Source: Clostridiaceae bacterium
Lineage (GTDB): Bacteria; Bacillota; Clostridia; Clostridiales; Clostridiaceae
Length of the DNA: 52,845 bases
Assembly: GCA_014380625.1 (NCBI GenBank)
Contig: JACMJL010000157.1
Location: forward strand, 1-52,845
Reading direction: 5' to 3'
Both the position numbers and the translations under genes were made by a program. The notes below the pieces were generated by a model. The model did not search any database and had not been told where the DNA came from. It saw only the letters and a program-made list of their open reading frames with translations. This document shows, piece by piece, positions 97-42,383 of this stretch (positions within the stretch are counted from its first letter, which is position 1; each line of letters begins with the position of its first letter).

Positions 97-118
97 CCTT
101 GAAATCAATATTATCCAC

Positions 119-286
119 TGTCATTTTACCTGAGAGTTTCACTAGTTTTCACTAACTTTCTCCTTCGGTGCTCTATATAGAGTCTCTCCAAGGGCTCGTC
201 CTGTAACAGTCATCTCCTCACGGTACCTGAAAGATTTACTTCTTCGGTGTATAGATACTCTATACTCTCCTGCTACAATCATCCGA
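119..286 (-). promoter_or_regulatory. Tandem glycine riboswitch
   Basis: Read on the minus strand, two consecutive aptamer-like blocks are visible. Each starts with GGAGAG, carries an ACCGAAG core, and ends in a CTTTCAGGTA- or CTCTCAGGTA-type segment, joined by a short linker (about position 190). This is the usual layout of cooperative gcvT-type glycine riboswitches. The downstream hairpin and T-tract at 69-96 suggest transcriptional control of the ACT-domain gene. In characterised family members glycine binding usually turns expression on; the direction here is inferred. Confidence 0.9.
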
Positions 287-8065: not shown

Positions 8066-8509
8066 ATGGCATATTCAGATAGAGAATTATTAGCAAGATT
8101 ACTAAAATGTGAAGCAGGAGGTGAAGGTGATAACGGAATGAAGGCTGTTGCCACTTCCATTATGAATAGAGTTAGAGTTTCAGCTGGCGAATACCAAAGA
8201 ATAGGTCAAGGTGATATTAGAAAAGTACTATATCAAAAGGGCCAATATGACTGTATGCGTTCAGTTCTTGGCGGAGTGGCAAATCCACAAACTATCTGGG
8301 CAAGTCCACCAGAGCAAATTCATTATGATATCGCCGATTGGGCATTGGCGGGAAACAGATTATTCCCAATAGGATATTCACTGTGGTACTTTAATCCCTT
8401 TGCTCCAGGTTGTCCCTATCTTTTCCCTTTTAACGGCTCAGGAACTTTTCAAATAGCTGTTGCTGAGCATTGCTTCTACAATCCTACAGCCTTATATTTT
8501 ACAACATAA
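8066..8509 (+). CDS. cwlJ: CwlJ-like spore cortex lytic hydrolase
   Basis: A 147-aa protein made up of a single SleB/CwlJ hydrolase_2 domain with no signal peptide, as in CwlJ, which degrades spore cortex during germination. LLARLLKCEAGGEG contains the predicted catalytic glutamate, and SIMNRV and WYFNPFAPGCPY are family-typical. The start at 8066 follows GAGGTG by seven bases. An in-frame ATG at 8051 overlaps that site and is less likely. The downstream gene, 21 bases away, encodes a GerQ-like protein. In Bacillus CwlJ needs GerQ for its localisation, so the pairing supports the call and suggests mother-cell expression. Confidence 0.88.
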   Translation: MAYSDRELLARLLKCEAGGEGDNGMKAVATSIMNRVRVSAGEYQRIGQGDIRKVLYQKGQYDCMRSVLGGVANPQTIWASPPEQIHYDIADWALAGNRLFPIGYSLWYFNPFAPGCPYLFPFNGSGTFQIAVAEHCFYNPTALYFTT

Positions 8510-9619: not shown

Positions 9620-9659
9620 AAAGTGATGATTTTATGTTAGTATGTAAAATCATCACTTT
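9620..9659 (-). terminator. Terminator of msrB
   Basis: A 15-bp stem (AAAGTGATGATTTTA with TAAAATCATCACTTT) lies just past the msrB stop codon. On the minus strand it is followed by TTTTGTTAT. Confidence 0.75.
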
Positions 9660-9668
9660 GTATTAAAT

Positions 9669-10121
9669 TTATTTGAAAATTTTTAGATAATCCCCGTAAC
9701 CTTCTCCTTCAAGATCTTCTTTAACTATAAATTTTAACGATGCACTGTTAATGCAGTACCTTAATCCACCCTTATCTTTAGGTCCATCCTCAAAAACATG
9801 TCCAAGATGAGAGTCGCCTTTTTTACTTCTAACCTCGGTTCTTATAGTATTAAATGCACTATCAGGTTTCTCTAAAATTGCATCATAATCCAAAGGCTTA
9901 GCAAAACTAGGCCATCCACAAGCAGAATCAAACTTTTCAAGTGAGCTAAAAAGAGGCTCTCCTGTAACAATATCAACATAAATCCCTTCTCTTTTTTCGC
10001 CCCAAAACTCATTAGTAAATGGGTTTTCTGTTGCACTTTCTTGTGTCACCCTATATTGCAAAGATGACAATTTTCTCTTTATTTCGTGTTTATCTGGTTT
10101 TATATATTTTTCATTTGCCAT
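9669..10121 (-). CDS. msrB: Peptide methionine-(R)-S-oxide reductase
   Basis: MsrB repairs methionine-R-sulfoxide in proteins. The 150-aa single-domain protein has the family motifs CGWPSF (near residue 68), HLGHVF and the catalytic cysteine in [13 protein letters not shown] (near residue 122). The CxxC zinc pairs found in many MsrB proteins are absent, as in the zinc-free subgroup. GGAGG lies upstream of the ATG and a terminator follows. It appears monocistronic. No msrA is fused or adjacent. Confidence 0.95.
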
Positions 10122-10276
10122 GATGGATGTCCTCCTATATAAATAATTTATATGTTTTTCATGTTACTTGCTATTTTTACCTAAATATATTTATTTATGA
10201 TTTATTTTGTTTGCGCTTTAATTAAAAATGAATTAAACTTGTTTGTATATAAATAAGTTTAGAAGAGGTGAATTTT

Positions 10277-10630
10277 ATGCATAATCAGGTGTTGTTCTTA
10301 TTTATAATCCTTATTTCTATTATATTAAGTGGCTATAATATTAGGAACTATATTAAAGGAAATTTTCAGGGTAGTTTTCTAAAAAAATCCTTCAGCCCAA
10401 TTGAAACCTGCCTAATGGTTTTACTCCTTGGGATAATATTTTTTGTTTCCACATTAAAGTCACAGACTGACGCTATTTTTATTGTAACAGTAATATACCT
10501 AATTCCGTTAGTTTTAGTTAATCTAAAGTTATTTTTGAAAACTAAAAACAAGAATCATCTTTACAGTTCTTTATTGTTTTTAGTAATAGTTATTTTATGC
10601 AGTCTTTTGTTATTAATAGAGGTATTATAA
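10277..10630 (+). CDS. Hypothetical membrane protein, 117 aa
   Basis: I do not recognise a family. Four hydrophobic segments (about residues 3-20, 42-60, 68-86 and 96-115) make it almost entirely membrane-embedded, with short Lys-rich loops at 30-38 and 87-95. The ATG at 10277 follows AGAGGTG by six bases. A GTG nine bases earlier lies within that ribosome site. It ends 29 bases before the TTG start of methylglyoxal synthase, so both probably share a transcript. Confidence 0.7.
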   Translation: MHNQVLFLFIILISIILSGYNIRNYIKGNFQGSFLKKSFSPIETCLMVLLLGIIFFVSTLKSQTDAIFIVTVIYLIPLVLVNLKLFLKTKNKNHLYSSLLFLVIVILCSLLLLIEVL

Positions 10631-10659
10631 ACGCTACACCATTAAAGGGGGATTATATA

Positions 10660-11106
10660 TTGAAAAATATAGGTAAACAAAAACATATTGCACTAGTAGC
10701 CCATGATAATAGGAAACCGGATTTAATTAATTGGATTAAAGATAATAAAGAGAATATACAAAAGCATTTTCTTTTTGGTACAGGCACTACAGCCAGACTT
10801 ATAACCGAAGAAACTGGGTTACCCGTCAACGCTTTCAAAAGCGGTCCAATGGGTGGTGACCAGCAAATAGGTTCAGCCATAGTTAATGGTGAAATAGATT
10901 GCATGATTTTCTTTTGGGATCCATTAACATCTCAGCCCCATGACCCCGATGTTAAAGCTCTTTTAAGAATCGCTGTTTTATACGATATCCCTGTAGCCAT
11001 GAGTCAGTCCACAGCGGATCTTATAATTGGTGCTACCTCTATCAACGACGAGATTGAAAGACATATGATAGACTATTATTCTAGAATTAGAAAAGATAAC
11101 TTTTAA
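10660..11106 (+). CDS. mgsA: Methylglyoxal synthase
   Basis: MgsA converts dihydroxyacetone phosphate to methylglyoxal and phosphate, a bypass used when phosphate is short or sugar phosphates accumulate. The 148-aa protein contains ALVAHDNRK near the N-terminus, the phosphate-binding FGTGTTARLI, the catalytic aspartate in GPMGGDQQIG (near residue 70) and the histidine of SQPHDPD. I chose the TTG at 10660, because AAAGGGGGAT lies six bases before it and homologues begin close to this point. The longer frame from 10597 runs into the upstream gene. Confidence 0.94.
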   Translation: MKNIGKQKHIALVAHDNRKPDLINWIKDNKENIQKHFLFGTGTTARLITEETGLPVNAFKSGPMGGDQQIGSAIVNGEIDCMIFFWDPLTSQPHDPDVKALLRIAVLYDIPVAMSQSTADLIIGATSINDEIERHMIDYYSRIRKDNF

Positions 11107-11111
11107 TAAAT

Positions 11112-11152
11112 AATGGGGTAGCCCTTTAAGTGAATGGGCTGCCCCATTATTT
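11112..11152. terminator. Bidirectional terminator between mgsA and the DMT-transporter pair
   Basis: A 13-bp stem pairs AATGGGGTAGCCC with GGGCTGCCCCATT, with one G-T mismatch. AT-rich flanks are present on both sides. It overlaps the end of the minus-strand gene at 11147. Confidence 0.75.
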
Positions 11153-11485
11153 AGATAATCCTAAAATCAATGCTCCAACTATAATTAATATAACCCCAGA
11201 TATTTTTTTACTGCTAAGCTTTTCCTTTAAAATAAAAAATGAAATTACTAGAGTCCATACATAGGTTATAGCTGTAATTGGTAATACCACTGTGTAATTC
11301 AATCCTTTTAAAGCCAAGATATTTAATGCCGCACTTATTACGTAAAGCGTTCCACCTAGATATAGATAAGGACTAAAAAATATATTTATAATTGATGTAC
11401 CTGTATCCGCTGCTCTTTTGAAGAAAAGTCCACCAAAGGCTCCGAAAATTGTCATTATCAAACACACTAATAAATACTTATACAT
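11147..11485 (-). CDS. Small DMT/EamA-type transporter subunit (second of a pair)
   Basis: A 112-aa four-helix membrane protein of the drug/metabolite transporter superfamily, in the EamA/ArnE-like half-size class. It shows the typical terminal LKEKLSSKKISGVILIIVGA helix-loop-helix. Half-size members work as dimers, and a non-identical partner is coded immediately upstream. The ATG at 11485 overlaps the partner's stop (ATGTATAA) and is preceded by GGAGGCGG, indicating translational coupling. A TTG 12 bases upstream is less likely. The substrate is unknown; lipid-linked sugars, amines or drugs are possible. Confidence 0.8.
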   Translation of the reverse strand: MYKYLLVCLIMTIFGAFGGLFFKRAADTGTSIINIFFSPYLYLGGTLYVISAALNILALKGLNYTVVLPITAITYVWTLVISFFILKEKLSSKKISGVILIIVGALILGLSK

Positions 11486-11837
11486 CTCCGCCTCCAATAA
11501 AAGTTACCCCTAGCATTATTATTGCAACAGCAACATATTTGGCCACAGATATGTTTTCATGTAACTTAGTTTGTCCGAGTATTATAGCAAATATATACCC
11601 AACACTCATAAACGGATGCAGAACTGAAAGGCTTCCGAACCTAAAAGCCAAAATCATTAATACTGCACCTAATCCATAACAGACGAATCCAATTAGCACC
11701 AACTTCACTTCCGTTCCGTTGGAAAGCTTCCAAAATAATTGTCCAACAGAGGTGAAAATTGCAGCAATAATTATTAATAATATACCCTTTATGTTCTTTT
11801 TAATAGATTGTGAAAATTCATTTAAAACCTTATGCAA
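11478..11837 (-). CDS. Small DMT/EamA-type transporter subunit (first of a pair)
   Basis: A 119-aa protein with a polar 15-residue N-terminus and four membrane helices, ending in a VAKYVAVAIIMLGVTFIGG segment characteristic of the DMT superfamily. It is clearly related in fold to the next gene but of different sequence, which suggests a heterodimer like ArnE/ArnF. The start appears to be TTG at 11837 with GAGAGG about ten bases upstream. No in-frame ATG is available. It lies downstream of nothing obvious on its strand, 36 bases from the 3' end of hydF. Confidence 0.78.
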   Translation of the reverse strand: MHKVLNEFSQSIKKNIKGILLIIIAAIFTSVGQLFWKLSNGTEVKLVLIGFVCYGLGAVLMILAFRFGSLSVLHPFMSVGYIFAIILGQTKLHENISVAKYVAVAIIMLGVTFIGGGDV

Positions 11838-11873
11838 ATAAACCCATCCTCTCTAATTCTTTAAGAACTCATA

Positions 11874-13106
11874 TTATTCTTCTTCCCATAGCATTTTAGC
11901 CAATGGAAACGGCTCTAAGGCTCTATCGAAAATGCCTTGTACATAGGCAATTAAAATCCCATAATTAACTATTGGTACACTAAATTCTTTTGCTGCTTCA
12001 ATTCTATTTAACATTGCAGTTCTATTTAGCATGCATGCACCACAATGTATTATTAACGCATATCTTTTAACATCCTCAGTGAAGGTAACTCCTGAAGTGT
12101 ACTCGAAATCTAGCTGTTTACCAGTAATTTGTCTAAGCCACCTAGGAATCTTAACCCTTCCTATATCATCAGATTGTTGATGATGTGTACAGCCTTCTGA
12201 TACTAATACTTTATCTCCATCCTTAAGTTTTTCAATGGCCTTAACACCCCTGATAAGTTCCACTAAATCCCCCTTATATCGGGCAAATAAAATTGAAAAG
12301 GAAGTCATAGGTATATCCTTTGGTGTATCCGCTGCAACCTTTAAAAACACCTGAGAATCAGTAATAACAAGCCTAGGCCTTTTACCTAGATTTTCTAAAG
12401 TTTCCTTTAGCTCATGTTCCTTAGTTACTATTGCAATTGCATCGCTTTCAAGAATATCTCTAATTGTCTGTTGCTGAGGAAGAATTAACCTTCCCTTTGG
12501 AGCTGCCTTATCGATGGGAGTCACTAATACTACAAAGTCTCCCGGACTTATAAGATCCCCAATTATTTTAAACTTTTCCTCATCTTCTGGAAGGATACTT
12601 ATAATTTTATCCTTCAGTTCCTTTATCCCTTTTTTTGTAGCTGCTGAAACAGAAACAGAGGGAATATCTAGTTGTTTTTTTATTTCTTCAATATGCTCTT
12701 CATTTATATCAATCTTATCAATTTTATTTAAAACGGCTATTACTGGAACCTTTTTATCCTTAACTTGCTGAATAATAAACTTATCGTAGTCAGTTAGTCC
12801 AATGGAGCTATCAATAACTACCAAAGCAATATTTGTTTTATTTAAAACCTCAAGAGTTTTCTTTTTTCTTAATTCTCCAAGTTCTCCAACGTCATCCAAG
12901 CCGGCTGTATCAATAATTACGCAAGGCCCTATTGGTAAAATTTCCATAGCTTTATACACTGGGTCAGTAGTTGTACCTTTCACCTCAGACACTATAGCTA
13001 TCTCCTGATTTGTTATAGCATTAATAATGCTTGATTTCCCTGCATTTCTCATACCAAATAAAGCTATATGAACTCGCTCTGAGCGAGGTGTATCATTTAA
13101 ACTCAA
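11874..13106 (-). CDS. hydF: [FeFe]-hydrogenase H-cluster maturation GTPase HydF
   Basis: HydF is the scaffold that builds the 2Fe subcluster with HydE and HydG and delivers it to apo-hydrogenase. The 410-aa protein has an N-terminal GTPase domain (P-loop GMRNAGKSS near residue 18, switch KGTTTDP, DTAGLDD, LNKIDK), a dimerisation domain, and a C-terminal iron-sulfur domain with EGCTHHQQ and IIHCGACMLN giving the cysteine/histidine ligands. The start is TTG at 13106 after AAGGAGG. It follows aspA by 12 bases on the same strand, so the two are probably co-transcribed. HydE and HydG are not in the window. The hydrogenases it could serve are at 38217-42383. Confidence 0.96.
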   Translation of the reverse strand: MSLNDTPRSERVHIALFGMRNAGKSSIINAITNQEIAIVSEVKGTTTDPVYKAMEILPIGPCVIIDTAGLDDVGELGELRKKKTLEVLNKTNIALVVIDSSIGLTDYDKFIIQQVKDKKVPVIAVLNKIDKIDINEEHIEEIKKQLDIPSVSVSAATKKGIKELKDKIISILPEDEEKFKIIGDLISPGDFVVLVTPIDKAAPKGRLILPQQQTIRDILESDAIAIVTKEHELKETLENLGKRPRLVITDSQVFLKVAADTPKDIPMTSFSILFARYKGDLVELIRGVKAIEKLKDGDKVLVSEGCTHHQQSDDIGRVKIPRWLRQITGKQLDFEYTSGVTFTEDVKRYALIIHCGACMLNRTAMLNRIEAAKEFSVPIVNYGILIAYVQGIFDRALEPFPLAKMLWEEE

Positions 13107-16989: not shown

Positions 16990-17391
16990 TTACTGACAGA
17001 TAAAGCTATCTATTTTCCTTAAGTCCGTACCAAAATATACCCATCTGTGTCCCGTCCATCTAAAACCAGATGCCGATTTTCTTCCAACCTGAGTTAACCA
17101 AGCCCAAAAGCTACTTCCATTTGTAAGCCATATATAAATGTAATGGAACTTACATGGTCTTATAGCTCCACCTTCTATTGACATAGGTGACATTCCTAAA
17201 TAAGATTTTACATTACCTTCATTCTTGTGAGGTACTCCGCTAGGGGGTGGTCCATTTGGTACTGATGAGGGTTGATTCTCTTGCATTCCTTCTTTATTTT
17301 GAGAGTCCCCACCAAAAGTTGGAGGAGGTGACATTGGATATTCTGATCTATAATTACAATATGGGCAATCAAAGTTATTGTTAAGGTACAT
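16990..17391 (-). CDS. Pro/Gln-rich protein with CPYC motif, probable spore-surface protein (paralogue 1)
   Basis: A 133-aa protein, no signal peptide. Residues 9-12 are CPYC within FDCPYCNYRSEYP. Residues 20-60 are low-complexity (Pro, Gly, Asn, Ser). The C-terminal part (about 63-133) is conserved with the neighbour at 17537, with GAIRPCK, YIYIWLTNG, FWAWLTQVGR, RWTGHRWVYFGTDLRKIDSF and a final cysteine. Similar C-terminal domains occur in small clostridial proteins of unknown role. The promoter matches the sigma-K pattern, so I infer late mother-cell expression and a place in coat or exosporium. Function is not known. Confidence 0.75.
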   Translation of the reverse strand: MYLNNNFDCPYCNYRSEYPMSPPPTFGGDSQNKEGMQENQPSSVPNGPPPSGVPHKNEGNVKSYLGMSPMSIEGGAIRPCKFHYIYIWLTNGSSFWAWLTQVGRKSASGFRWTGHRWVYFGTDLRKIDSFICQ

Positions 17392-17420
17392 GCTATATTC
17401 TCCTAATAAGTATTTCAGTT

Positions 17421-17451
17421 TATTATATGTAATAAATCATAAAATTGTTAA
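17421..17451 (-). promoter_or_regulatory. Sigma-K-type sporulation promoter, paralogue 1
   Basis: On the minus strand CATATAATA (17421-17429) fits the sigma-K -10 pattern CATAnnnTA. An AC (17447-17448, within TTAACA) lies exactly 17 bases upstream. The same arrangement precedes the second paralogue. Sigma-E is the main alternative. Confidence 0.6.
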
Positions 17452-17484
17452 TATGAATTATTCATCCAATATAAGTTATACACG

Positions 17485-17527
17485 AAAAGGGGATGTCTCA
17501 AAATAATTAGTTATTTTGAGACACCCC
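17485..17527 (-). terminator. Terminator of paralogue 2, CTCAAA-family copy 2
   Basis: On the minus strand the arms GGGTGTCTCAAAATAA and TTATTTTGAGACATCCC pair with one G-T, followed by TTTT. It ends the gene at 17537-17986 and isolates it from the next paralogue. Confidence 0.8.
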
Positions 17528-17536
17528 CTCAAAAGC

Positions 17537-17986
17537 TTATCTACAAAAGAAGCTATCAATCCGTCTTAAGTCTGTGCCAAAATATACCCATCTACGTCCA
17601 GTCCATCTATACCCTGATACTGATCTTCTTCCAACGTAGGTTAGCCAAGCCCAAAAACTATTTCCATTTGTAAGCCATATATAAACATATCTATACCTAC
17701 AAGGTCTTATGGCTCCTGAGTCTATTGCCATGGGCGACATTCCTGAATAAGACTTTACACCGCTGAGATTTTTTGAAGGCACCATATTAGGTGGTGGTCC
17801 ACTTGGTGGAGATGATTGCTGTTGTCCAGGCATTCCTCCCATATTTGGTGGTCCGCTTGGTGGCCTGAAATCCTGTGAATCCTCGTAATATTCCATCTGA
17901 TCTTCATCAAAGAATTCAGATGGTGATATAGGATATTCAGACCTATAGTTACAATATGGGCAATCAAAATCATAATTAAAATACAT
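17537..17986 (-). CDS. Pro/Gln-rich protein with CPYC motif, probable spore-surface protein (paralogue 2)
   Basis: A 149-aa paralogue of the gene at 16990. It starts with YFNYDFDCPYCNYRSEYPIS, has an acidic then Pro/Gln-rich spacer (about residues 22-75), and ends with the conserved domain (about 79-149) with AIRPCRYRYVYIWLTNGNSF, YVGRRSVSGYRWTGRRWVYF and LRRIDSFFC. The ribosome site and the bases before the ATG are nearly the same in both copies, so the duplication took in the promoter. The spacers have diverged in length while the tail is well kept. Function unknown; spore coat or exosporium is inferred from the promoter. Confidence 0.75.
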   Translation of the reverse strand: MYFNYDFDCPYCNYRSEYPISPSEFFDEDQMEYYEDSQDFRPPSGPPNMGGMPGQQQSSPPSGPPPNMVPSKNLSGVKSYSGMSPMAIDSGAIRPCRYRYVYIWLTNGNSFWAWLTYVGRRSVSGYRWTGRRWVYFGTDLRRIDSFFCR

Positions 17987-19753: not shown

Positions 19754-19779
19754 TCTTTTAATATAAGTTTTTAATTGCA

Positions 19780-20004
19780 TTGATCAGAAATAGTAAAGGT
19801 TTAGAAATTTTCAGAGAGCCGATATACGCTGAAAATCGGTAATTTCAATATCTTGAACTCATCTGGGAGCAATCTTCTTGAAGTAATGTAGGGGAGATCG
19901 GAGTTCCACCGTTATAAGGATAGATGGTAATAGCCATTAATTTATATGGTTGTAACCTTGAAAAGTGAGTTTTTTAAGTAAAGCTAAACTGAGTGGTACC
20001 GCGG
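19780..20004 (+). promoter_or_regulatory. T-box riboswitch, leucine specifier (CTC)
   Basis: A long leader ends in the T-box sequence GAGTGGTACCGCGG (19991-20004), whose TGG pairs with the free NCCA end of uncharged tRNA. The specifier loop region near 19850-19870 contains GAACTCATC, placing CTC (19858-19860), a leucine codon, at the specifier position. The downstream gene is 2-isopropylmalate synthase, consistent with leucine starvation control. A terminator follows directly. Confidence 0.93.
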
Positions 20005-20010
20005 GTTAAT

Positions 20011-20041
20011 CTCGTCTCTTTTATAAGAGACGAGTTTTTTT
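20011..20041 (+). terminator. T-box-controlled terminator
   Basis: A 10-bp stem (CTCGTCTCTT with AAGAGACGAG, short loop) is followed by seven Ts. Pairing of the T-box bulge with uncharged tRNA would stabilise the competing antiterminator. Confidence 0.92.
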
Positions 20042-34222: not shown

Positions 34223-35053
34223 TTATCTTACAATTTCATTTTCTTTAACCAACATAGAAAATATAATACTCAATATTAGTATTGAAGATATTACTATCAA
34301 GGAAGAAAACACGGATATATCAAATTTAAAGAATAATAAGCTTAACTTAACACCTGTGAATATTAAAATTAGTGCTACTCCGTATTTTACAAGGCTAAAA
34401 TTACTCTGAAGTCTTTCTAATAAGAAGTACATATTTCTAAGACCCAGAATGGCAAAAATATTAGAAGTATACACTATAAATAGGTCCCTAGTTATTGAAA
34501 AAATTGCAGGTATGGAGTCCATGGCAAAGATTATATCTGACCCTTCAATAAGTACTAGAATAGCAAATAAGGGCGTAGCATAAAGTCTTTTATTTTTTAC
34601 CACGAAAAACTTTTCACCCTCAAGGTTTTCCGTTACGGGCATTACTTTCCTTAAAGCTTTATACAAAAAACTTTCTTTAAAATCCATAATTTCCTCATTG
34701 GTATTAAACATTTTAATGCCACTAAATATAAGCGTGATCCCAAAAACATAAAGCATCCAGTAAAATCTATTTATTATTGATACCCCAAGGATAATAAATA
34801 CTAATCTTAATATAATTGCTCCAATAATTCCGTAGTTTAAAATTCTATTTTGAAACCTAGGCCCAATTCCAAAGCTCTTAAAAATAATTAAAAACAAAAA
34901 AAGGTTATCCAAGCTAAGACTCTGCTCGATTATGTAACCACCTAAAAACTCGGCTGCCTTTTGCTGACCCATAAAAAAATAAATACCTATATTAAATATT
35001 AATGCTAGTCCCACCCAATAACATAACCTTAAAAAGGCTTTTCCTGTTCCCAC
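34223..35053 (-). CDS. TerC-family integral membrane protein
   Basis: A 276-aa protein with seven or more membrane helices and the TerC signature: EQSLSLDNLFLFL near residue 43 and EGSDIIFAMDSIPAIF near 168, two conserved acidic membrane motifs. TerC/Alx/YkoY relatives export manganese or metallate extracytoplasmic enzymes. The original link is tellurite resistance. The start is GTG at 35053 with GGGGG about 12 bases upstream. No yybP-ykoY manganese riboswitch was recognised upstream. It appears to be a single gene. Confidence 0.92.
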   Translation of the reverse strand: MGTGKAFLRLCYWVGLALIFNIGIYFFMGQQKAAEFLGGYIIEQSLSLDNLFLFLIIFKSFGIGPRFQNRILNYGIIGAIILRLVFIILGVSIINRFYWMLYVFGITLIFSGIKMFNTNEEIMDFKESFLYKALRKVMPVTENLEGEKFFVVKNKRLYATPLFAILVLIEGSDIIFAMDSIPAIFSITRDLFIVYTSNIFAILGLRNMYFLLERLQSNFSLVKYGVALILIFTGVKLSLLFFKFDISVFSSLIVISSILILSIIFSMLVKENEIVR

Positions 35054-35213
35054 TTCAAAACTTGCCCCCTTCTATAATCCCTAAATAAAAATCTACTTTA
35101 ATCAATGTTTTATCTTATAGCCTATGCTTACTATGCTCCTATCATTACATAGCTGGAAAAATTGTTTCATAAGTCCTTGAGACTGACTATGTCTATCAGT
35201 GGAGGTGAATAAA
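35054..35213. other. Intergenic region upstream of TerC with no recognised element
   Basis: Part of a 368-base gap. Apart from the TerC ribosome site (GGGGG near 35063-35068) I see no open frame, aptamer or clear promoter here. Confidence 0.5.
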
Positions 35214-35263
35214 GAGGCTATCTCAAAATAAAATGAATAATCATTTTATTTTGAGATAGCCTC
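35214..35263. terminator. Long terminator-like hairpin, CTCAAA-family copy 4
   Basis: A very long perfect stem pairs GAGGCTATCTCAAAATAAAA with its complement ending GCCTC, with a small loop. AAA and TT flanks are short. It ends the minus-strand unit holding the TnpB-like gene and its downstream hairpins. It is the longest member of the hairpin family also found at 16845, 17485 and 23193. Confidence 0.75.
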
Positions 35264-35421
35264 TTACTATATGTAACGCAATTTATTTGCAGCAATTTCA
35301 AATTTAGATAGCTACACTTTAGCACAATTTGATGTGCTCCTGCTCTGCAGGTTTCAGTCAAGCAAAGGGTATATCCTCTTAACCAGGCCATGGTGTGGTA
35401 GCAAAAACACCATATAAAAAA
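35264..35421 (-). ncRNA. Candidate guide-type RNA downstream of the TnpB-like gene
   Basis: Immediately after the stop codon the minus strand folds into three compact hairpins: 35390-35413 (ATGGTGT/ACACCAT), 35339-35351 (CCTGC/GCAGG, loop AGA) and 35321-35338 (AGCACA/TGTGCT). TnpB proteins are normally accompanied by an omega RNA that overlaps or follows the 3' end of the gene and ends in a guide. By analogy the guide would lie just beyond 35321 on the minus strand. I found no convincing match to that segment elsewhere in the window. RNA identity is inference. Confidence 0.45.
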
Positions 35422-37008
35422 TTATACTATTTTAATTACTTTTAAAACATCATCATTTGTTTCAAGCTTCTTTATAAAACTAAACTTCTTCTTAAAGGTT
35501 TTTTTTCTCTTTTCTGAATCCATATTTATATAAAAATCCTTTATTACAGCATTAATTGTATTCCTCAACTTATCATTATCACCATAATTATTTTTCGAAG
35601 AAAATTCTATACCTAAATCACTGTTAATATACTTTATTCCCTCAGTGGTTCCCTCAACTTTAACCTTAACTAAATCATTTTTATACTTAATTAATTTTCT
35701 TGATAAATTATTACTTCCTATTTCTTCAATACTTAAGCTCATACCACAATTTGTACACATAAACACATTATGAGAAAATCTATTTCCTTTAGTATTTGAT
35801 GCGCACCGTGGACATGTGTGAAATATACTTAAGCTACTCACCCTAATAGGTGGAGGTAATCCCTTTGCTGGAAGTTTATATTTCAATATATCATACAATC
35901 TATTGTACTGAAAACATCCTAATATGGGGTTATATTCCTTATTGTTTTTGTCCATATAACTAAGTTTATCACCCTTATGAACTAGTTTCTCCATTATCAC
36001 TTGACAGTTATTGTCTTTTGCTAATTGGATTAATCTATTTGCAATTTCATGTAACTTATTTAGTTTAATGCTATTTTCCTTAGGCTTCTCATTACCATAT
36101 ATCACAGTGCCATCTATATTATTTACCATAGTATAGTTAATTATATTTTCAATGCCTCTAGTAACTCCCATATAGTTATTTACTTTTATTGTTTCTACAG
36201 CTTCAATTTCCATATTTATTGATAGAAAGTATTCTTCCTTACGTTTCACAAGTCTCGCTGTTTTAATCATTTCAGGATTTTTAGAAACTAATTGTAAATA
36301 CTTCTCTTGGTATTTACCAAATGATACTGGTAAAATTAGGAACCCTTCTGGTTTACCATGCACTTTAAAAACATCTCTATTTTTACTTATGTATCTTAAA
36401 ACAGTGGCAGAGTTCTCATCAAATTTTTTTCGATTCTCATTATGGAAATTCATTAAATACATTTTTATATAGTATCTATCTTTTAATTCATCATATAAAA
36501 TGGAATAGTTTCTATTAGTAGCATATCTACAGAAAAATATAGGTCTTAAATTTTCATTTTTACTCATAAGTCTATCTATTCTTTTCAAGGACTTCTCCGG
36601 ATTTTCATCATCATTAATACACAAATCCATAACCTTGTTATATTCATTATTAAATGCTTCTCCACTAATGTATGAACTGGGATATTCTGAAACCTCCCCT
36701 GTAGCTACCAGATTTAAATAACCTGCTATAGTAGCTCCAAAATCAATTTTTAAAGAATCCTTAAAAGGCTCAATATCAAATTCATTAAGGACTAAATTGA
36801 AATTACTTCCAATCCATTTTGAAACCTTTTTAGCACTGTATTTCCCATTTTTATCTACATAGTCTGATTTTATTTTCTCTATTTCAGGCTGAGCAGCATC
36901 TAAAAGATACTGATATGCCATAGTATAGTTTTGCAGAGCTTCATCTAATATTTGTTTTTTCTTCATACTTGGCTTATAAATCTTTAGCACTATAGTTCTC
37001 ATAGTCAT
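35422..37008 (-). CDS. TnpB/Cas12-like RuvC-fold protein, predicted nuclease-impaired
   Basis: A 528-aa protein with the general layout of IS605 TnpB. The N-terminus is MRTIVLKIYKPSMKKKQILDEAL. The RuvC-I region MGVTRGIENI (280-289) has Thr283 where the catalytic Asp (GIDLG) should be. RuvC-II CQVIMEKL retains Glu340. A zinc finger is formed by C399/C402 and C418/C421. In the RuvC-III region EIGSNNLS (429-436) the usual DxNAA aspartate is missing. No tnpA or recognisable element ends are present. RBS AAGGAGG supports the start. It lies 39 bases after a PP2C-type phosphatase and the sensory hydrogenase. It resembles the concept of TnpB-derived nuclease-dead regulators, but is longer than typical TnpB (about 400 aa). 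Confidence 0.8.
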   Translation of the reverse strand: MTMRTIVLKIYKPSMKKKQILDEALQNYTMAYQYLLDAAQPEIEKIKSDYVDKNGKYSAKKVSKWIGSNFNLVLNEFDIEPFKDSLKIDFGATIAGYLNLVATGEVSEYPSSYISGEAFNNEYNKVMDLCINDDENPEKSLKRIDRLMSKNENLRPIFFCRYATNRNYSILYDELKDRYYIKMYLMNFHNENRKKFDENSATVLRYISKNRDVFKVHGKPEGFLILPVSFGKYQEKYLQLVSKNPEMIKTARLVKRKEEYFLSINMEIEAVETIKVNNYMGVTRGIENIINYTMVNNIDGTVIYGNEKPKENSIKLNKLHEIANRLIQLAKDNNCQVIMEKLVHKGDKLSYMDKNNKEYNPILGCFQYNRLYDILKYKLPAKGLPPPIRVSSLSIFHTCPRCASNTKGNRFSHNVFMCTNCGMSLSIEEIGSNNLSRKLIKYKNDLVKVKVEGTTEGIKYINSDLGIEFSSKNNYGDNDKLRNTINAVIKDFYINMDSEKRKKTFKKKFSFIKKLETNDDVLKVIKIV

Positions 37009-37047
37009 ATGCTCTGCCTCCTTGTATCAAAATCTCAAACTATAATT

Positions 37048-38220
37048 TTAAACATATTCTAAAGTTACTTTTTTTCCTAATTGCTTCAAGCAATTAGCCA
37101 TTTCTCCAACTAATTTTAGTTTTATACCAAGATCTAAAGGGAATTCAGGATTTTGGTGAGCTGGATTTATTGCTCTTCCTACTATAAATTTAACAGAAGT
37201 ACTTTCATCTATTAACAACTTGGCCAATTTAGAAGCCCCATCTTGTTTGTTTAAATCCAAAAAATCCTTAATGGTATTTTCTGAAGACACATATCTTTTT
37301 GCGTAATCTAATGCTTTACCCATAGTTAGAATTCCTTCAGTAGTTAAATCTATTCCCTCTATTTTTGCAGTAGGTGGAACTTTTTCATCAAAATAATTTA
37401 AAGTAGTTGATATTTCCTTCTTTAATTCTCTACTAACAATTTGAGAAGTTGTGCCCCCACATACAATCTTTTTCCCATCCTCATTAATAAACCTACTTAC
37501 AATACTCTGGTCCATATTTTTATTAACAGGTGGTCCAATCATTACACTTACTTGAACACAATTTCTAACTTTAATTGTGACAACCGTGGTGTCATCCCCT
37601 GGCTTTTTTGCGTACAGATTATCACATACTTCTAGTAAGAGCATTGATATATTTTTAGCAGAAATATCTTTTCTGTATATTCGCTCTAGATATTCCTTAA
37701 TATTCTCCCATTGCCATCCTAAATTTAAAATATGTCCAACTCCCGCATGGATAGCTCCATCACTTACCATAACCAAAATATCATCAGTATTAATAGTAAA
37801 TCTACTTTCTTTTATCAATTTTCCATTTATCTCTCTCACCTGTCTATTTATATCAACATATCTTCCTTTTATAAGTCTAATTATGGATGGGTTATCAAAC
37901 TCAATCAAATAACATTCTCCTGAATTGAATATCTGCAAAATTGAAAATGTAGAATATGCAATACCTCTTTCGTTACAAACAGGTAATGTATTTATAATCG
38001 TATCAACAGCTTCATCAATGCTTGCTCCCATAGAAATCATGGTACCAATAATTTTGCTAGTTAAAGTAGCTAAAATGTTAGCCTTTACTCCACTTCCTAA
38101 TCCATCTGCTAAAACTACGATAACAAAATCTTCTGTTCTAATTATTTCAACCTTATCTCCACAAAGTTCTTCATTGTACTTATTTAAACTTAAATAATCT
38201 GCGTCTACAAAAATATTCAT
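37048..38220 (-). CDS. SpoIIE/PP2C-type serine phosphatase
   Basis: A 390-aa protein. Residues about 1-215 form a PP2C-like SpoIIE domain with VVLADGLGSGVKANILATL, MVSDGAIHAG and KKPGDDTTVVTIKV, providing the metal-binding aspartates. The remaining 170 residues (from CVQVSVMIGPPVN) are a conserved extra domain with KIVCGGTTSQIVSREL. The ATG overlaps the stop codon of the sensory hydrogenase gene (ATGA), which indicates translational coupling. Phosphatases of this kind are known partners of group C [FeFe]-hydrogenases and are thought to carry the output signal. The target phosphoprotein is unknown. Confidence 0.88.
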   Translation of the reverse strand: MNIFVDADYLSLNKYNEELCGDKVEIIRTEDFVIVVLADGLGSGVKANILATLTSKIIGTMISMGASIDEAVDTIINTLPVCNERGIAYSTFSILQIFNSGECYLIEFDNPSIIRLIKGRYVDINRQVREINGKLIKESRFTINTDDILVMVSDGAIHAGVGHILNLGWQWENIKEYLERIYRKDISAKNISMLLLEVCDNLYAKKPGDDTTVVTIKVRNCVQVSVMIGPPVNKNMDQSIVSRFINEDGKKIVCGGTTSQIVSRELKKEISTTLNYFDEKVPPTAKIEGIDLTTEGILTMGKALDYAKRYVSSENTIKDFLDLNKQDGASKLAKLLIDESTSVKFIVGRAINPAHQNPEFPLDLGIKLKLVGEMANCLKQLGKKVTLEYV

Positions 38221-39941
38221 TTACCTTCACCTATCTCTGATTGTATTGACTTTTTTAATTTTGTTAGTGCAACCTTTGTTTCTGCAGTAGTCTCACCTAA
38301 AAGACTGGCAATTTGCTGAGCTACTCTCATCTGTTTGTCAATAACCTTCTGCGCAATCTCAACAGTCTCCGATCGGACAGCATACATTTGTTGTTGCTTT
38401 TTCTCATCTTCAGTAATATCCTTCATAAAAACAAATATCATCTGTTGATCTTTTATATATAAGATAGATTGCTCTGCAATAACATCATTTTCTATATAAT
38501 GATATTTTTTATTATATATTCCTTCGCCGGATTCCCTTACAAGTTCAAAATCAGGACAATTTATAACCTCAAATATCTTTTTACCTATAATAATCTCTGG
38601 ACCTTCAAAGCTAAACATCTTCCTAGCGGAAAAATTTATCTCTTTAATGGTTAGATCTTCATTTAGTGCAAAAATAGCATTGGGTGTAGAATTTATTATT
38701 AAATTAGAAATTGATTCTGCACTTTCTCTCATATATGGAAGACACATATTAATGTCTGCTTTTTTATTGTATACTGCAATTGCCTTTTCTCTACAATTAG
38801 AATACCCACAGGCTCCACAATTCAACTCTTTTTCTTTGGAAAATTTCCCTATTTTGTTTAATATTTCTCTTATAGTTGTTTCTGGAGGAACCTTGTAATC
38901 CCAAGACTTATCTCTAAAATTTTTCTTGACATTAATTCTACTATCTAGTTCTAGTCCAGGCTTACTGTTTTCAGTGGTTGCCTTTGCATAATTATCTAAC
39001 CTATCTTTAAGCTCTAAAAAACTAGCACAATTAAGATTCATACAGGGACCACCAAGGCAACTTCCGACACAACTATTCATTTCTAGAAAATAATTTTTTA
39101 TATTTCCTTTTTTAACTCCATCTAAAATTTCAATACATCTATCTAATCCATCAAACTTTACTAATTTATAATCATATCTTTTATTTGGATTTAAAGACTT
39201 TATTATTCCACCAGGAGCTGGGTAAAATCTTGATTTATTATTATACATGCTATTTATGTCAATTTCATAATCATCCTTAAAGGAAAGACCTTCTACTTCT
39301 ACCCATTTTTCTAACTCTTCAAAAGTTATTACTGCATCAATTAAATCATCATTTTGATTATCCTTGAATTCCTCTTTTTTAGAAATACAGGGTCCAATAA
39401 ATACTATCTTTATTCTAGTTCCATACGTTTCCTTCATTATTTTTGCATGAGCAATCATAGGAGAAACCACTGGAGCTAACTGATTTATTAATTCAGGATA
39501 ATATTTTTCTACTAATGATACTACTGTAGGACAAGCAGTGGTAATAATGTTAGTCATCTCCTTTTGAGTCAATAAATCTTCATATTCTTTAGAGACTCTA
39601 GAGGCTCCTATTGCCGTTTCTTCTACGTGAGTAAACCCTAACTTCTTTAAAATTCCAAATTTGTTTTTTTCATTATCAATATTAAAAGCTGGTGCAAAAG
39701 CTGGTGCTACACTAGCGTACACCTTTTGTTTATTATTAATAAAGTTCCTAACCTTATCAACATCATTTTTTACACTTTTTGCATTTTGGGGACAAACTTG
39801 TAAACACTTCCCACACAATACACAAGCCTCTTCAATAATTTGAGCTTGGTCATTTTTAAATTCAATAGCTTTTACAGGACAACTTCTTATACATTTATAA
39901 CAGTTTTTACAATTTGCTTCTTTGAATTGTATAGTGCTCAT
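38217..39941 (-). CDS. Sensory [FeFe]-hydrogenase (group C, HydS/HfsB-like) with PAS domain
   Basis: A 574-aa protein. Two [4Fe-4S] ferredoxin motifs are at residues 11-21 and 40-50. An H-cluster domain (about 70-330) has altered motifs: TTACP in place of TSCCP near 133, FIGPCISKKEE near 181, and EMNSCVGSCLGGPC near 290. An FeS motif CGACGYSNC lies near 372, then a PAS domain (about 405-510) and a coiled-coil tail. This order is that of group C hydrogenases proposed to sense H2 rather than turn it over rapidly. It is first in an operon with a PP2C phosphatase. GGAGG precedes the ATG. Confidence 0.9.
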   Translation of the reverse strand: MSTIQFKEANCKNCYKCIRSCPVKAIEFKNDQAQIIEEACVLCGKCLQVCPQNAKSVKNDVDKVRNFINNKQKVYASVAPAFAPAFNIDNEKNKFGILKKLGFTHVEETAIGASRVSKEYEDLLTQKEMTNIITTACPTVVSLVEKYYPELINQLAPVVSPMIAHAKIMKETYGTRIKIVFIGPCISKKEEFKDNQNDDLIDAVITFEELEKWVEVEGLSFKDDYEIDINSMYNNKSRFYPAPGGIIKSLNPNKRYDYKLVKFDGLDRCIEILDGVKKGNIKNYFLEMNSCVGSCLGGPCMNLNCASFLELKDRLDNYAKATTENSKPGLELDSRINVKKNFRDKSWDYKVPPETTIREILNKIGKFSKEKELNCGACGYSNCREKAIAVYNKKADINMCLPYMRESAESISNLIINSTPNAIFALNEDLTIKEINFSARKMFSFEGPEIIIGKKIFEVINCPDFELVRESGEGIYNKKYHYIENDVIAEQSILYIKDQQMIFVFMKDITEDEKKQQQMYAVRSETVEIAQKVIDKQMRVAQQIASLLGETTAETKVALTKLKKSIQSEIGEGK

Positions 39942-40048: not shown

Positions 40049-40345
40049 TTACTTAAAATTTAAATTTTCTATATTATGTCTATTAATAAAAGGCTTGAAA
40101 TGTTTTCTTTTATACTCAAACTTCCACTGGTCTTTCAAAATCACATGTGATGCTACGGTTTTCTTAGGAGTAATAATATTTAGCTGTTCCATATTGAATT
40201 TATTTTCATAACAAGGATACTCCATTTCATACTCTTCAATATCTTTTTTAAATTGAAACCCTGTGATTTCACAGACACATGCATTATTTGTTCTAGCCTC
40301 TACGTTTACTCGCTTATAATAGTTACACATCTCACAAGCTAACAT
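40049..40345 (-). CDS. Cysteine-containing hypothetical protein, 98 aa
   Basis: Not recognised. The N-terminus carries CEMCNYYKR and later CVCEITGFQF, which together look like a four-cysteine zinc or iron-sulfur site (C4, C7, C23, C25). The C-terminus is Lys/His-rich. GGAGGGG precedes the ATG. It lies upstream of the sensory hydrogenase on the same strand, 107 bases away, and divergent to the [2Fe-2S] protein, so a link to hydrogenase redox signalling is possible but unproven. Confidence 0.65.
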   Translation of the reverse strand: MLACEMCNYYKRVNVEARTNNACVCEITGFQFKKDIEEYEMEYPCYENKFNMEQLNIITPKKTVASHVILKDQWKFEYKRKHFKPFINRHNIENLNFK

Positions 40346-40494
40346 TTTAACCCCTCCTAATTTTATTTTTCAAAATTAAAAAATTTGATATTCACTTAAC
40401 AATTTCAGCATAGCAACATCTTTTCTAAACTTCAATAAGTCCCCTAAATATTTATCCAAAAAAATTTCACTCTGATATTATTAGATACGGTATG

Positions 40495-40544: not shown

Positions 40545-40581
40545 TTAAGTATAATTAAACTAATTATTAGGAGTGATATAT

Positions 40582-40830
40582 ATGAAAACAGTAACCGTAT
40601 GTATTGGTAGTAGCTGTCATCTTAAAGGTTCCTACGATGTAGTTCATGCGCTTCAGAAATTAATTGAAGAAAACAATCTAGATAGCACAGTTACAGTTAA
40701 AGCATCCTTTTGCCTAGGAGAATGCACAAAAGGAGTTTCTGTAAAAATTAACGATAGTTCTGTGATTTCAGTTAATAAAGAAAATGTTAATAGTTTTTTT
40801 AATGAATATATTTTAAATGATAAAGAGTAA
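40582..40830 (+). CDS. Thioredoxin-like [2Fe-2S] ferredoxin (NuoE/HydC-like)
   Basis: An 82-aa protein of the thioredoxin-like ferredoxin fold. CIGSSC near residue 8 and CLGEC near residue 45 supply the four cluster ligands. Such proteins serve as electron-transfer subunits of hydrogenases and NADH-type complexes. The ATG at 40582 follows AGGAGTGAT. It precedes the hydrogenase gene by 77 bases on the same strand, so the two are probably functional partners. Confidence 0.88.
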   Translation: MKTVTVCIGSSCHLKGSYDVVHALQKLIEENNLDSTVTVKASFCLGECTKGVSVKINDSSVISVNKENVNSFFNEYILNDKE

Positions 40831-40907
40831 CCATTATACAGCTTTTTTTAAATTTTTAAATTTGATATTTATAACTTAACATTATAAAAATAGGAGAAGT
40901 GATAGAT

Positions 40908-42383
40908 TTGAAAGTTTTTGAAAGTGATGTACAACTAATAAAATATGAGGTAATTAGAGAGGTAGTTCGGCTTACAATTAATGGAACACTAAAGAAACAA
41001 CGTAAAAATATATCTAAGATTCTGATTCCAGGACCCAAGGCAAGAACTCGTTGCTGTATTCATAAAGAAAGGGCAATTATTGATGAAAGAGTTAAACTTG
41101 TAATGGGTGGAGATAAAAAAAATAGCAACATTATCGAGGTAATAAATATAGCTTGTGATGAATGTCCTATACATCGCTTTACAGTTACTGAAGCCTGTAG
41201 AGGTTGTATTGCACATAAATGTACTGAAGTATGTCCTGTAGGTGCAATTCACTCCATAAATCAAAGATCTTACATCGATACAAATAAATGTATTGAATGT
41301 GGTAAATGTAAAAGTGTTTGCCCCTATAATGCAATTTCAGATGTAATGAGACCTTGCCGTAGAGCATGCAATGCAGGTGCTTTAACCTTTGATGAAGATA
41401 AAAAAGCAGTAATCGATAATGCGAAATGTATACAATGTGGTGCCTGTGTTTATCAATGCCCTTTTGGAGCAATTATGGATAAGTCTTCAGCAGTTGATGT
41501 TACTAACATATTACTAGAATCCAAGCAAGATAAAAATATTCATGTATATGCTATTATTGCACCTGCAATTTCTAGTCAATTTACCTACGCTAAAATTGGT
41601 CAAGTTGTTGCAGGTATAAAAAAATTAGGGTTTAAAGATGTTATAGAAGTTGCCCTTGGTGCAGACATGGTAGTATTAAATGAAACCAAAGAATTTATAG
41701 AAACCATTGAGGAACTAAAAGCTATGACAAGTTCTTGTTGCCCAGCTTTTGTTTCTTACCTTAAGAAGAATTACCCAGAATTAGGTAAGCATGTTTCAAG
41801 TACGGTTTCTCCAATGATAGCAATTTCTAAACTTATTAAAAGTACAGACCCTTTAGCTAAAGTTGTATTTATAGGACCTTGTACAGCTAAAAAAATGGAA
41901 ATAAATGAAGTTGATATAAAGGGGATTACAGACTATGTATTAACTTTTGAAGAACTTCAGGCAATGCTAGATGCCTTTGACATAAATATTGAAGAGTGTG
42001 AGGAACTGCCCTTAAATAACGCCTCTTTTTATGGAAGAATTTTTGCTAGATCTGGTGGTCTTACTCAGGCAGTAAAACACTTAGTTGAAGCTGAAAATAC
42101 TCCAATTGAGTTTAAACCTATAAGTTGTGATGGTCTTATTGAATGTGATAAAGCCTTAAAGTTATTGAAATTTAATAGATCAAACGGTAATTTCATCGAA
42201 GGTATGGCTTGCACTGGTGGATGTATAGGTGGAGCAGCCTCCCTTAGCCATGGCGTAAAAGATAAAAATGAAGTAGATAAATATGGAAAATTAGCCTTAG
42301 AAAAAGATGTTATTGATTCTCTCAGAATAATAAAGGTTGAGAAAATTGATCTACATCGTGGTAAAAATTTTATGACTAATTAA
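40908..42383 (+). CDS. [FeFe]-hydrogenase, group B-like catalytic protein
   Basis: A 491-aa iron-only hydrogenase. The N-terminal third has an unusual cysteine-rich domain (RTRCCIHKE, CDECPIH, CRGCIAHKC) and ferredoxin motifs CIECGKCKSVCP and CIQCGACVYQCP. The H-cluster domain follows with TSSCCPAF near residue 275, FIGPCTAKKMEIN near 325 and EGMACTGGCIGGA near 430. These keep all H-cluster cysteines but differ from group A enzymes (GPC for MPC, no Trp after CCPA), fitting group B. The start is taken as TTG 40908. The GTG at 40899 is only two bases from AGGAG. It needs HydF (hydF is at 11874). Confidence 0.92.
   Translation: MKVFESDVQLIKYEVIREVVRLTINGTLKKQRKNISKILIPGPKARTRCCIHKERAIIDERVKLVMGGDKKNSNIIEVINIACDECPIHRFTVTEACRGCIAHKCTEVCPVGAIHSINQRSYIDTNKCIECGKCKSVCPYNAISDVMRPCRRACNAGALTFDEDKKAVIDNAKCIQCGACVYQCPFGAIMDKSSAVDVTNILLESKQDKNIHVYAIIAPAISSQFTYAKIGQVVAGIKKLGFKDVIEVALGADMVVLNETKEFIETIEELKAMTSSCCPAFVSYLKKNYPELGKHVSSTVSPMIAISKLIKSTDPLAKVVFIGPCTAKKMEINEVDIKGITDYVLTFEELQAMLDAFDINIEECEELPLNNASFYGRIFARSGGLTQAVKHLVEAENTPIEFKPISCDGLIECDKALKLLKFNRSNGNFIEGMACTGGCIGGAASLSHGVKDKNEVDKYGKLALEKDVIDSLRIIKVEKIDLHRGKNFMTN

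Follow-up and report, generated by a model that had tools for sequence, protein, structure and literature searches.

A candidate RNA-guided regulator of hydrogenase promoters, related to TnpB, in a clostridial sensory hydrogenase operon

Why should the operon of a sensory [FeFe] hydrogenase carry a TnpB-like gene? The question is raised by a stretch of 52,845 nucleotides from a Clostridiaceae bacterium (contig JACMJL010000157.1 of assembly GCA_014380625.1; the window, below). In it, a gene for a TnpB/Cas12f-like protein of 528 amino acids (aa) at 35422-37008 (minus strand) follows genes for a sensory hydrogenase of the HydS type, with 4Fe-4S domains, an H-domain and a PAS domain (38217-39941, minus strand, from family models), and for a SpoIIE/PP2C-type phosphatase (37048-38220, minus strand; Pfam SpoIIE, E 6.9e-12). 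An earlier reading made from the letters alone (the sequence-only reading) had proposed a domesticated RNA-guided regulator of H2 or redox genes, and this is supported by a motif that we find ahead of hydrogenase operons. Comparative sequence evidence suggests, with a rough probability of 0.78, that a TnpB has here been domesticated, has lost its nuclease activity and uses a short, hard-wired guide to bind hydrogenase promoters, which it probably activates under control of an H2/redox sensor.

The 528-aa open reading frame (ORF) is preceded by a good ribosome site (AAGGAGG) and the PP2C gene ends 39 bases ahead of it, all as first described. The protein is matched by the NCBIfam Cas12f2 model (E 1.2e-11, far below the curated cut-off) and by TIGR01766 (E 1.3e-5); its family-model matches are all under curated cut-offs where cut-offs exist. 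Cas12f and TnpB chains were recovered in a profile search of PDB sequences (best E 2.9e-11), and in Foldseek an AlphaFold model of middling confidence (pLDDT 73.8, pTM 0.51) matched AsCas12f (E 5e-13), TnpB 8h1j (E 4e-8) and dCas12f 9n9c (E 1.3e-5). The TnpB assignment thus holds, as do the residues named for the window protein: Thr283 at RuvC-I, Glu340 at RuvC-II and the zinc finger C399/C402/C418/C421. Across the 22 family members described below, the RuvC-I aspartate is never found, its place being taken by T, S, G, A or V. Retention of the RuvC-II glutamate is true of the window protein and not of the family (Glu in 5/22; H, Q, K or Y in 17/22). The RuvC-III aspartate is indeed missing from the window protein, which has Glu428 there; the loss does not extend to acidity, which is kept at this position in all members (Glu in 16, Asp in 6). 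The nearest intact relative found, a TnpB of a Pseudoalteromonas plasmid matched by the family profile over most of its length (153 bits), has D/E/D aligned with the substituted positions, and no intact acids occur at shifted ones. By these alignments the family is TnpB/Cas12f-like with the RuvC-I acid lost, and the protein is probably nuclease-dead and non-cutting. It is under purifying selection, as indicated by dN/dS values of 0.08-0.12 in the seven pairs computed. An additional domain of some 90 aa at the C terminus (a helix, three strands and further helices; pLDDT 72) gave no significant match in a sequence search and one marginal Foldseek match, to the antitoxin structure 3k6q (E 6e-3, TM 0.7), leaving it with no firm relative; it could be a contact for RNA polymerase. 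An origin from phages or plasmids was considered and rejected, with only distant relatives found, in two phage and seven plasmid records.

The survey covered 206 genomes of the family, 225 of the order, 391 of the class and 398 of the phylum, sets that overlap partly. Twenty-two full-length members from 14 genera were identified (the window and 21 relatives, whose loci are cited by L numbers); a 94-aa piece interrupted by stops (L019) and TnpB matches of lower significance (E 2.5e-10 to 8e-5) were excluded. In the phylum sample the window's own genome alone was matched. Every one of the 22 genes is housed in a hydS-PP2C operon, with hydS directly before PP2C in 21 by a strict script; in L066, given the starts chosen, there is an 86-base overlap between the two frames. 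The PP2C occurs in 106 of the 391 class genomes and the TnpB-like gene in 15, all of which have the PP2C. Tree distances of the TnpB-like protein correlate with those of PP2C (Mantel r 0.935) and HydS (0.919), with 0/1000 permutations as high, although common descent alone would give such correlations too. The window's genome (assembly 81% complete) has one copy of the gene, and the reported absence of TnpA is borne out: none is on the window's contig, and the genome's seven Y1-transposase (TnpA) rows are all on other contigs. No mobile copies with variable neighbours are seen, and the TnpB-like gene is inherited together with hydS-PP2C. In L062, a bifunctional AdhE (9636-12242; NCBIfam PRK13805, 1453 bits) is encoded between PP2C and the TnpB-like gene, and proteins with AdhE-like length and start occupy the same position in L063 (9639-12245) and L064 (10083-12686), which ties the operon to alcohol formation in that family.

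Hairpins after the stop codon had been proposed as a possible guide RNA. What stands is a conserved, structured, omega-RNA-like element at 35306-35418 (minus strand), 3' of the TnpB-like gene and kept with compensatory changes in 22/22; what does not is the strongest hairpin, an inverted repeat at 35212-35265 (minus strand) that folding analysis shows about 40 bases past the end of the element and that looks like a terminator. Compared with 100 shuffles, the stretch past the stop has the better fold (z -5.1), and comparison of the 500 bases downstream of the 22 genes yielded one common element: a GGTG...CACC hairpin with GCTGC in its loop, a CTTAC-AGA-GTAAG hairpin, then AAAGTGCAGC-TATCT. On the minus strand of the window these are hairpin P1 (35407-35411 with 35392-35396), hairpin P3 (35339-35351), a pseudoknot (35398-35402 with 35311-35315) in which the loop GCTGC pairs with GCAGC, and, directly after it, TATCT (35306-35310; 22/22), the proposed guide seed, which AAATTTG continues from 35305 downwards. 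The RNAs were cut at the word AGCTATCT, which a script located in 22/22 downstream stretches. In the alignment, 97.5% of cells are paired and 9 of 15 pairs show double changes, a value reached by 0/500 shuffles; the L066 and L072 rows are off by one base in P1 and were scored as unpaired there. The pseudoknot and P3 are paired in every sequence, and the pseudoknot shows GC>AU and CG>UA swaps, including double changes in the window (GCTAC/GTAGC) and in L075 (GCTGTC/GACAGC).

With a covariance model of this RNA, each of the 22 genomes yields a single strong match, adjacent to the gene (50-99 bits; the runner-up reaches 24), and 14 of 331 genomes of the class sample, all of them carriers, score above 50 bits. 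Weak matches (24-34 bits) in eight other genomes were taken as chance; six of these were inspected (L136-L141), and no family or hydrogenase match was found nearby. For an RNA like this one beside two distant relatives of phage or plasmid type, the one match obtained (11.8 bits) was unconvincing. The 3' location, the position and the pseudoknot beside the tail match the plan of an omega-RNA, with the unpaired TATCT standing at the guide position. A stem of at least 8 base pairs begins 3-12 bases past TATCT in 17/22, which leaves space for a short guide only. In the remaining five, the window hairpin lies further on as described, L071 and L076 have short stems further on, and the script found none in L075 and L078. 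A promoter of the RNA's own was not clearly above shuffles (mean score 8.67 vs 8.32, standard deviation 0.76), and processing from the operon mRNA is therefore assumed. The guide seems to start right after the pseudoknot and to be short and nearly fixed; neither this nor the activator-like spacing of the sites described below had been foreseen by the sequence-only reading.

The word TATCT recurs in CCGTATCT, which is present in the intergenic DNA ahead of hydrogenase operons in many carriers. We ranked 8-mers found in at least five genera by genera/expected, using noncoding sequence from the 22 loci other than the RNA itself. CCGTATCT comes first: it occurs in 10/14 genera, 15 times against 0.76 expected, mostly upstream of hydrogenase operons. 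As a control we used 40 PP2C loci from class genomes without a TnpB-like gene in the family search, with no family match in the loci; 38 of them hold hydS, in 36 cases immediately ahead of PP2C and with 600 or more bases of upstream sequence. In these 40 loci the motif is absent from 75,498 noncoding bases, where 1.4 occurrences were expected, compared with 15 sites in 12/22 carrier loci (Fisher p 3e-7). Allowing any base in third place gives 26 sites in 16/22 carrier loci against 11 in 10/40 controls. The proposed target in the window (40483-40490, minus strand) lies between the divergent hydS and hydA operons and is CCGTATCT reading on into AATAATATC; as CCGTATCTAATAATATC it has seven nucleotides (nt), TATCTAA, in common with the RNA tail. 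Guide and site agree over 9 nt in L077, 10 nt in L063 (at CCATATCTGACAT), 8 nt in L062 (at CCATATCTGAC) and mostly 5-6 nt elsewhere. The element AAAACC[G/A]TATCT is repeated ahead of the operon in L062, L063 and L065, and CCT variants occupy corresponding places in L067, L068 and L076. Close to a gene of L075 that by eye resembles a hydrogenase maturase, there is also an intergenic CCGTATCT site, near 8208.

Genome-wide, 14 of the matches to the narrow pattern AWACCGTATCTAW are in genes and 16 are intergenic, 10 of the latter upstream of hydS or [FeFe] hydrogenase operons. One such site (L202) is unlinked, upstream of a hydrogenase operon about 0.5 Mb away in genome G374 (HydA 912 bits, cut-off 765). 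In L192, a CCGTATCTAATAATAA site near 1501 precedes a NuoEF-type redox operon, itself located ahead of hydS; the third protein of this operon (1103 aa; operon at L217 2226-7881) resembles glutamate synthase small subunit/formate dehydrogenase. In L195, a CCGTATCTAATAATAT site near 1501 is located 221 bp upstream of an iron-type alcohol dehydrogenase gene (L218 1280-2431), with a -35 box 56 bp on, and this gene is likely an extra target. Four other intergenic sites are without an assigned role, and the sole other match in the window's own genome lies within a gene (L189). In L184 and L185, of one genus, a ATACCGTATCTATAG site near 1501 occurs in both near an oppositely oriented short-chain dehydrogenase gene.

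How would a complex at these sites act? Spacing to promoters was examined for 21 linked sites, belonging to hydrogenase operons (19), the NuoEF-type operon (1) and the alcohol dehydrogenase (1). Among them are CCT and CCA variants as well as a degenerate site, CCGTATTT, in L078; six of 27 rows were left out (L184, L185, L201, L210, L036 and L039). All 21 point towards the operon for which they are counted. At 11 of them the best downstream -35/-10 pair begins 55-57 bp from the CC, whereas 2.5% of shuffles fall within 54-58. The spacing is 44-45 bp for five sites that belong to one genus, 26 bp where a promoter has a second site (three cases) and 33 bp in L202. Best promoters stand at those distances for 16/26 CCNTATCT sites of carriers (12/22 loci) and for 0/11 of controls; the comparison words give 20/195 and 7/250 (NNNTATCT) and 30/523 and 22/860 (CCGNNNNN) for carriers and controls, respectively. 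With a standard promoter, these distances put the CC near -61, -80 and -90. Class I CRP sites are centred at -61.5 or further upstream (PMC2859248). In the window, the candidate -35 box of the hydS operon (TTGAAG, 40430-40435, minus strand) lies 55 bp away from the site and is followed 17 bp on by TATGCT. There, and in L076, L077 and L078, the region is divergent and the site, which could serve either operon, points to hydS, away from hydA.

Given their fixed spacing upstream of the -35 box and their orientation towards the operon, the sites most likely serve in activation. The same ribonucleoprotein could instead repress from the same sites, its upstream R-loops excluding an activator or bending the DNA in the manner of TldR. 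Known TldR proteins do repress (PMC13418256), and one with a 6-nt guide still represses its target, which implies that short guides are workable. At 19/21 linked sites, however, the best -35 box is 26-57 bp downstream at few discrete distances, and not under the site; repression is thus unlikely, though a reading to be kept in view.

Several observations weigh against the proposal of an RNA-guided activator. AWACCGTATCTAW has 30 matches in the 22 genomes compared with 31 for its reversed control, so any regulon must be small. A guide starting after TATCT was tried and found unconvincing, own guides doing hardly better than swapped ones (own-locus prefix matches of mean 7.95 nt vs 7.17); upstream 6-mers numbered 9 vs 5.5 expected and 7-mers 4 vs 1.6 expected at offset 0, with counts otherwise near expectation. 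A guide that includes TATCT was adopted for this reason. Beyond TATCT, guide and site agree over only 0-5 more nt. L064 and L065 have the guide TATCTGAC and sites reading TATCTA or TATCTT. Five of the 22 (L036-L038, L066 and L072) keep protein and RNA with no CCNTATCT site near hydrogenase genes, the search outside the loci having used AWACCGTATCTAW only; L069 and L078 show TATTT variants only, and the L039 site is 529 bp from the nearest operon gene. The best promoter in the window is at 117 bp from the site, the one at 55 bp ranking second of 207 positions. The distance classes behind the 16/26 vs 0/11 comparison derive from these very carriers, and related genomes do not supply independent sites or trees. 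Finally, one of five covariation measures for the RNA (further pair types) is no better than shuffles (271/500).

The weak agreement past TATCT in most genomes would also suit a different account, in which an unrelated protein regulator recognises CCGTATCT and the RNA only binds the TnpB-like protein and acts otherwise, in autoregulation, as an mRNA 3' end or as a decoy. We regard this as improbable, given that the motif is absent from the 40 control loci and holds the unpaired RNA tail in the register expected of a target-adjacent motif (TAM) plus guide. Moreover, in L062 and L063 the TATCTGAC tails accompany the CCATATCTGAC site, which is 57 bp from the -35 box.

The hairpins might alternatively be read as the metal riboswitch leader of terC/Alx. 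A terC gene is next downstream of the operon in the window (34223-35053) and in 6/21 relatives, and NCBIfam names it R_switched_Alx. Rfam gave nothing at gathering score for the RNA in the window or in the loci of 15 of the 21 relatives, and the window RNA has no credible match below that score either. As the RNA is kept in 15/22 loci with no terC found behind it, the leader explanation is refuted for 35306-35418 and we give it very little credence. Separately, in L067-L070, L073 and L074 a AAAGGGGAGTAGC-type leader is present ahead of terC, between the RNA and terC; it is reminiscent of a manganese riboswitch, and no Rfam match at gathering score was found in five of the six loci, those other than L068. 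That the gene is a decaying remnant of an ordinary IS605 TnpB sitting in the operon by chance, as loss of a catalytic acid might suggest, is virtually discounted and refuted by the purifying selection, the linkage to the same kind of operon in 22/22 and the conserved RNA.

We therefore return to the RNA-guided activator and outline how it might work. Gene and downstream RNA would form a ribonucleoprotein of TnpB descent that has lost DNA cutting and kept RNA-guided DNA recognition. The RNA would fold like an omega-RNA and present TATCT(A/G...) as a short, nearly fixed guide, and the protein would read CCG (also CCT or CCA) beside TATCT as the TAM. Through the TAM and 5-10 nt of guide, the complex would open the DNA at CCNTATCTA in its targets: [FeFe] hydrogenase operons, its own sensor operon and a few redox genes (the alcohol dehydrogenase and the NuoEF-type operon). 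It would then contact RNA polymerase from upstream in the fashion of a class I activator, and HydS and PP2C of the same operon would probably set its activity by H2 or redox state. The fuller proposal, to which we give even odds, is a clostridial H2-sensing chain of sensory hydrogenase and PP2C with an RNA-guided activator as output: a dead TnpB whose hard-wired 5-6-nt guide is preserved class-wide and which acts class I-like on hydrogenase and fermentation genes.

The closest known counterparts are TldR proteins, reportedly described by Wiegand in 2024 as TnpB-like nuclease-dead repressors and treated in PMC13418256. The likeness lies in TnpB derivation, an inactivated RuvC, association with host-function genes, a proposed guide RNA with a short seed and putative targets in promoter regions. 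In the present family, the RuvC-I aspartate is lacking throughout, the hydS-PP2C association is complete, the window's contig has no TnpA match, and 5-10 nt of agreement are seen at CCNTATCT sites upstream of hydrogenase operons. Unlike TldR, the family is tied to a sensory hydrogenase/PP2C operon and appears to have several target operons; its guide is nearly fixed across 14 genera, closed off in most loci by the nearby hairpin; and its sites are upstream of -35 at activator-like spacing, whereas TldR represses. Guide RNA-directed activation of transcription is a property of dCas12f with a dedicated cognate sigma factor gene alongside. That system also involves a nuclease-dead Cas12f-like protein with a guide RNA (PDB 9n9c/9n9m); it differs in that the sites here are upstream of canonical-looking -35/-10 promoters, and the structural match is weaker (E 1.3e-5) than that to AsCas12f (E 5e-13). 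No sigma factor gene was noticed among the window ORFs, the comparison with family models having covered the main operon proteins. TnpB and Cas12f have a 5' TAM, a 3' guide and a pseudoknotted RNA beside the guide. With IS200/IS605 TnpB and CRISPR Cas12f, the family has in common the fold, the zinc finger, the pseudoknotted RNA and, as proposed here, this TAM/guide layout; in contrast to IS200/IS605 TnpB, it has no D-E-D triad, and the gene is single copy, without TnpA on the contig, and inherited with hydS-PP2C. The likeness to class I activators such as CRP is a site upstream of the -35 box (PMC2859248); recognition here is proposed to run through RNA. The family would be a new branch of a known kind, the TnpB-derived RNA-guided transcription factors, set apart by its association with a sensor operon, by a guide nearly unchanged across the class and by activator-like geometry.

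The order of genes in the window operon (minus strand) is 98-aa protein, HydS, PP2C, 528-aa protein and inverted repeat. The 98-aa cysteine-rich protein (40049-40345, minus strand) is likely encoded by the first gene of the hydS operon; it has relatives in L076, L077 and L078 and no NCBIfam match. The divergent operon opens with an 85-aa protein of the thioredoxin-like ferredoxin type, named from its sequence (40573-40830, plus strand), whose relatives open the hydS operon in many carriers, and includes a monomeric [FeFe] hydrogenase of 494 aa (40899-42383, plus strand; NCBIfam FeFe_hydrog_B1, 587 bits, cut-off 450). Elsewhere in the window, Rfam identifies a T-box leader (19771-20022) ahead of a gene resembling 2-isopropylmalate synthase and a glycine riboswitch aptamer (108-201, minus strand). 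Also present are two adjoining similar genes for small proline/glycine-rich proteins of 133 and 149 aa (16990-17986), an apparent tandem duplication.

No link of TnpB or TldR to hydrogenase regulation was found among the papers listed in the literature searched, a scope outside which most subscription papers and all bioRxiv-only preprints fall. To our knowledge, the signal output of sensory [FeFe] hydrogenases is still open. If the proposed regulator is real, it would name a testable effector and DNA sites for this signalling, and would carry RNA-guided transcription factors beyond phages and mobile elements into the core energy metabolism of anaerobes. A fixed micro-guide and an activator-like geometry would be part of their repertoire, and a handle on H2 and alcohol yields would be gained. 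RNA guidance would then serve these bacteria as a fixed DNA-binding specificity within ordinary signal transduction.

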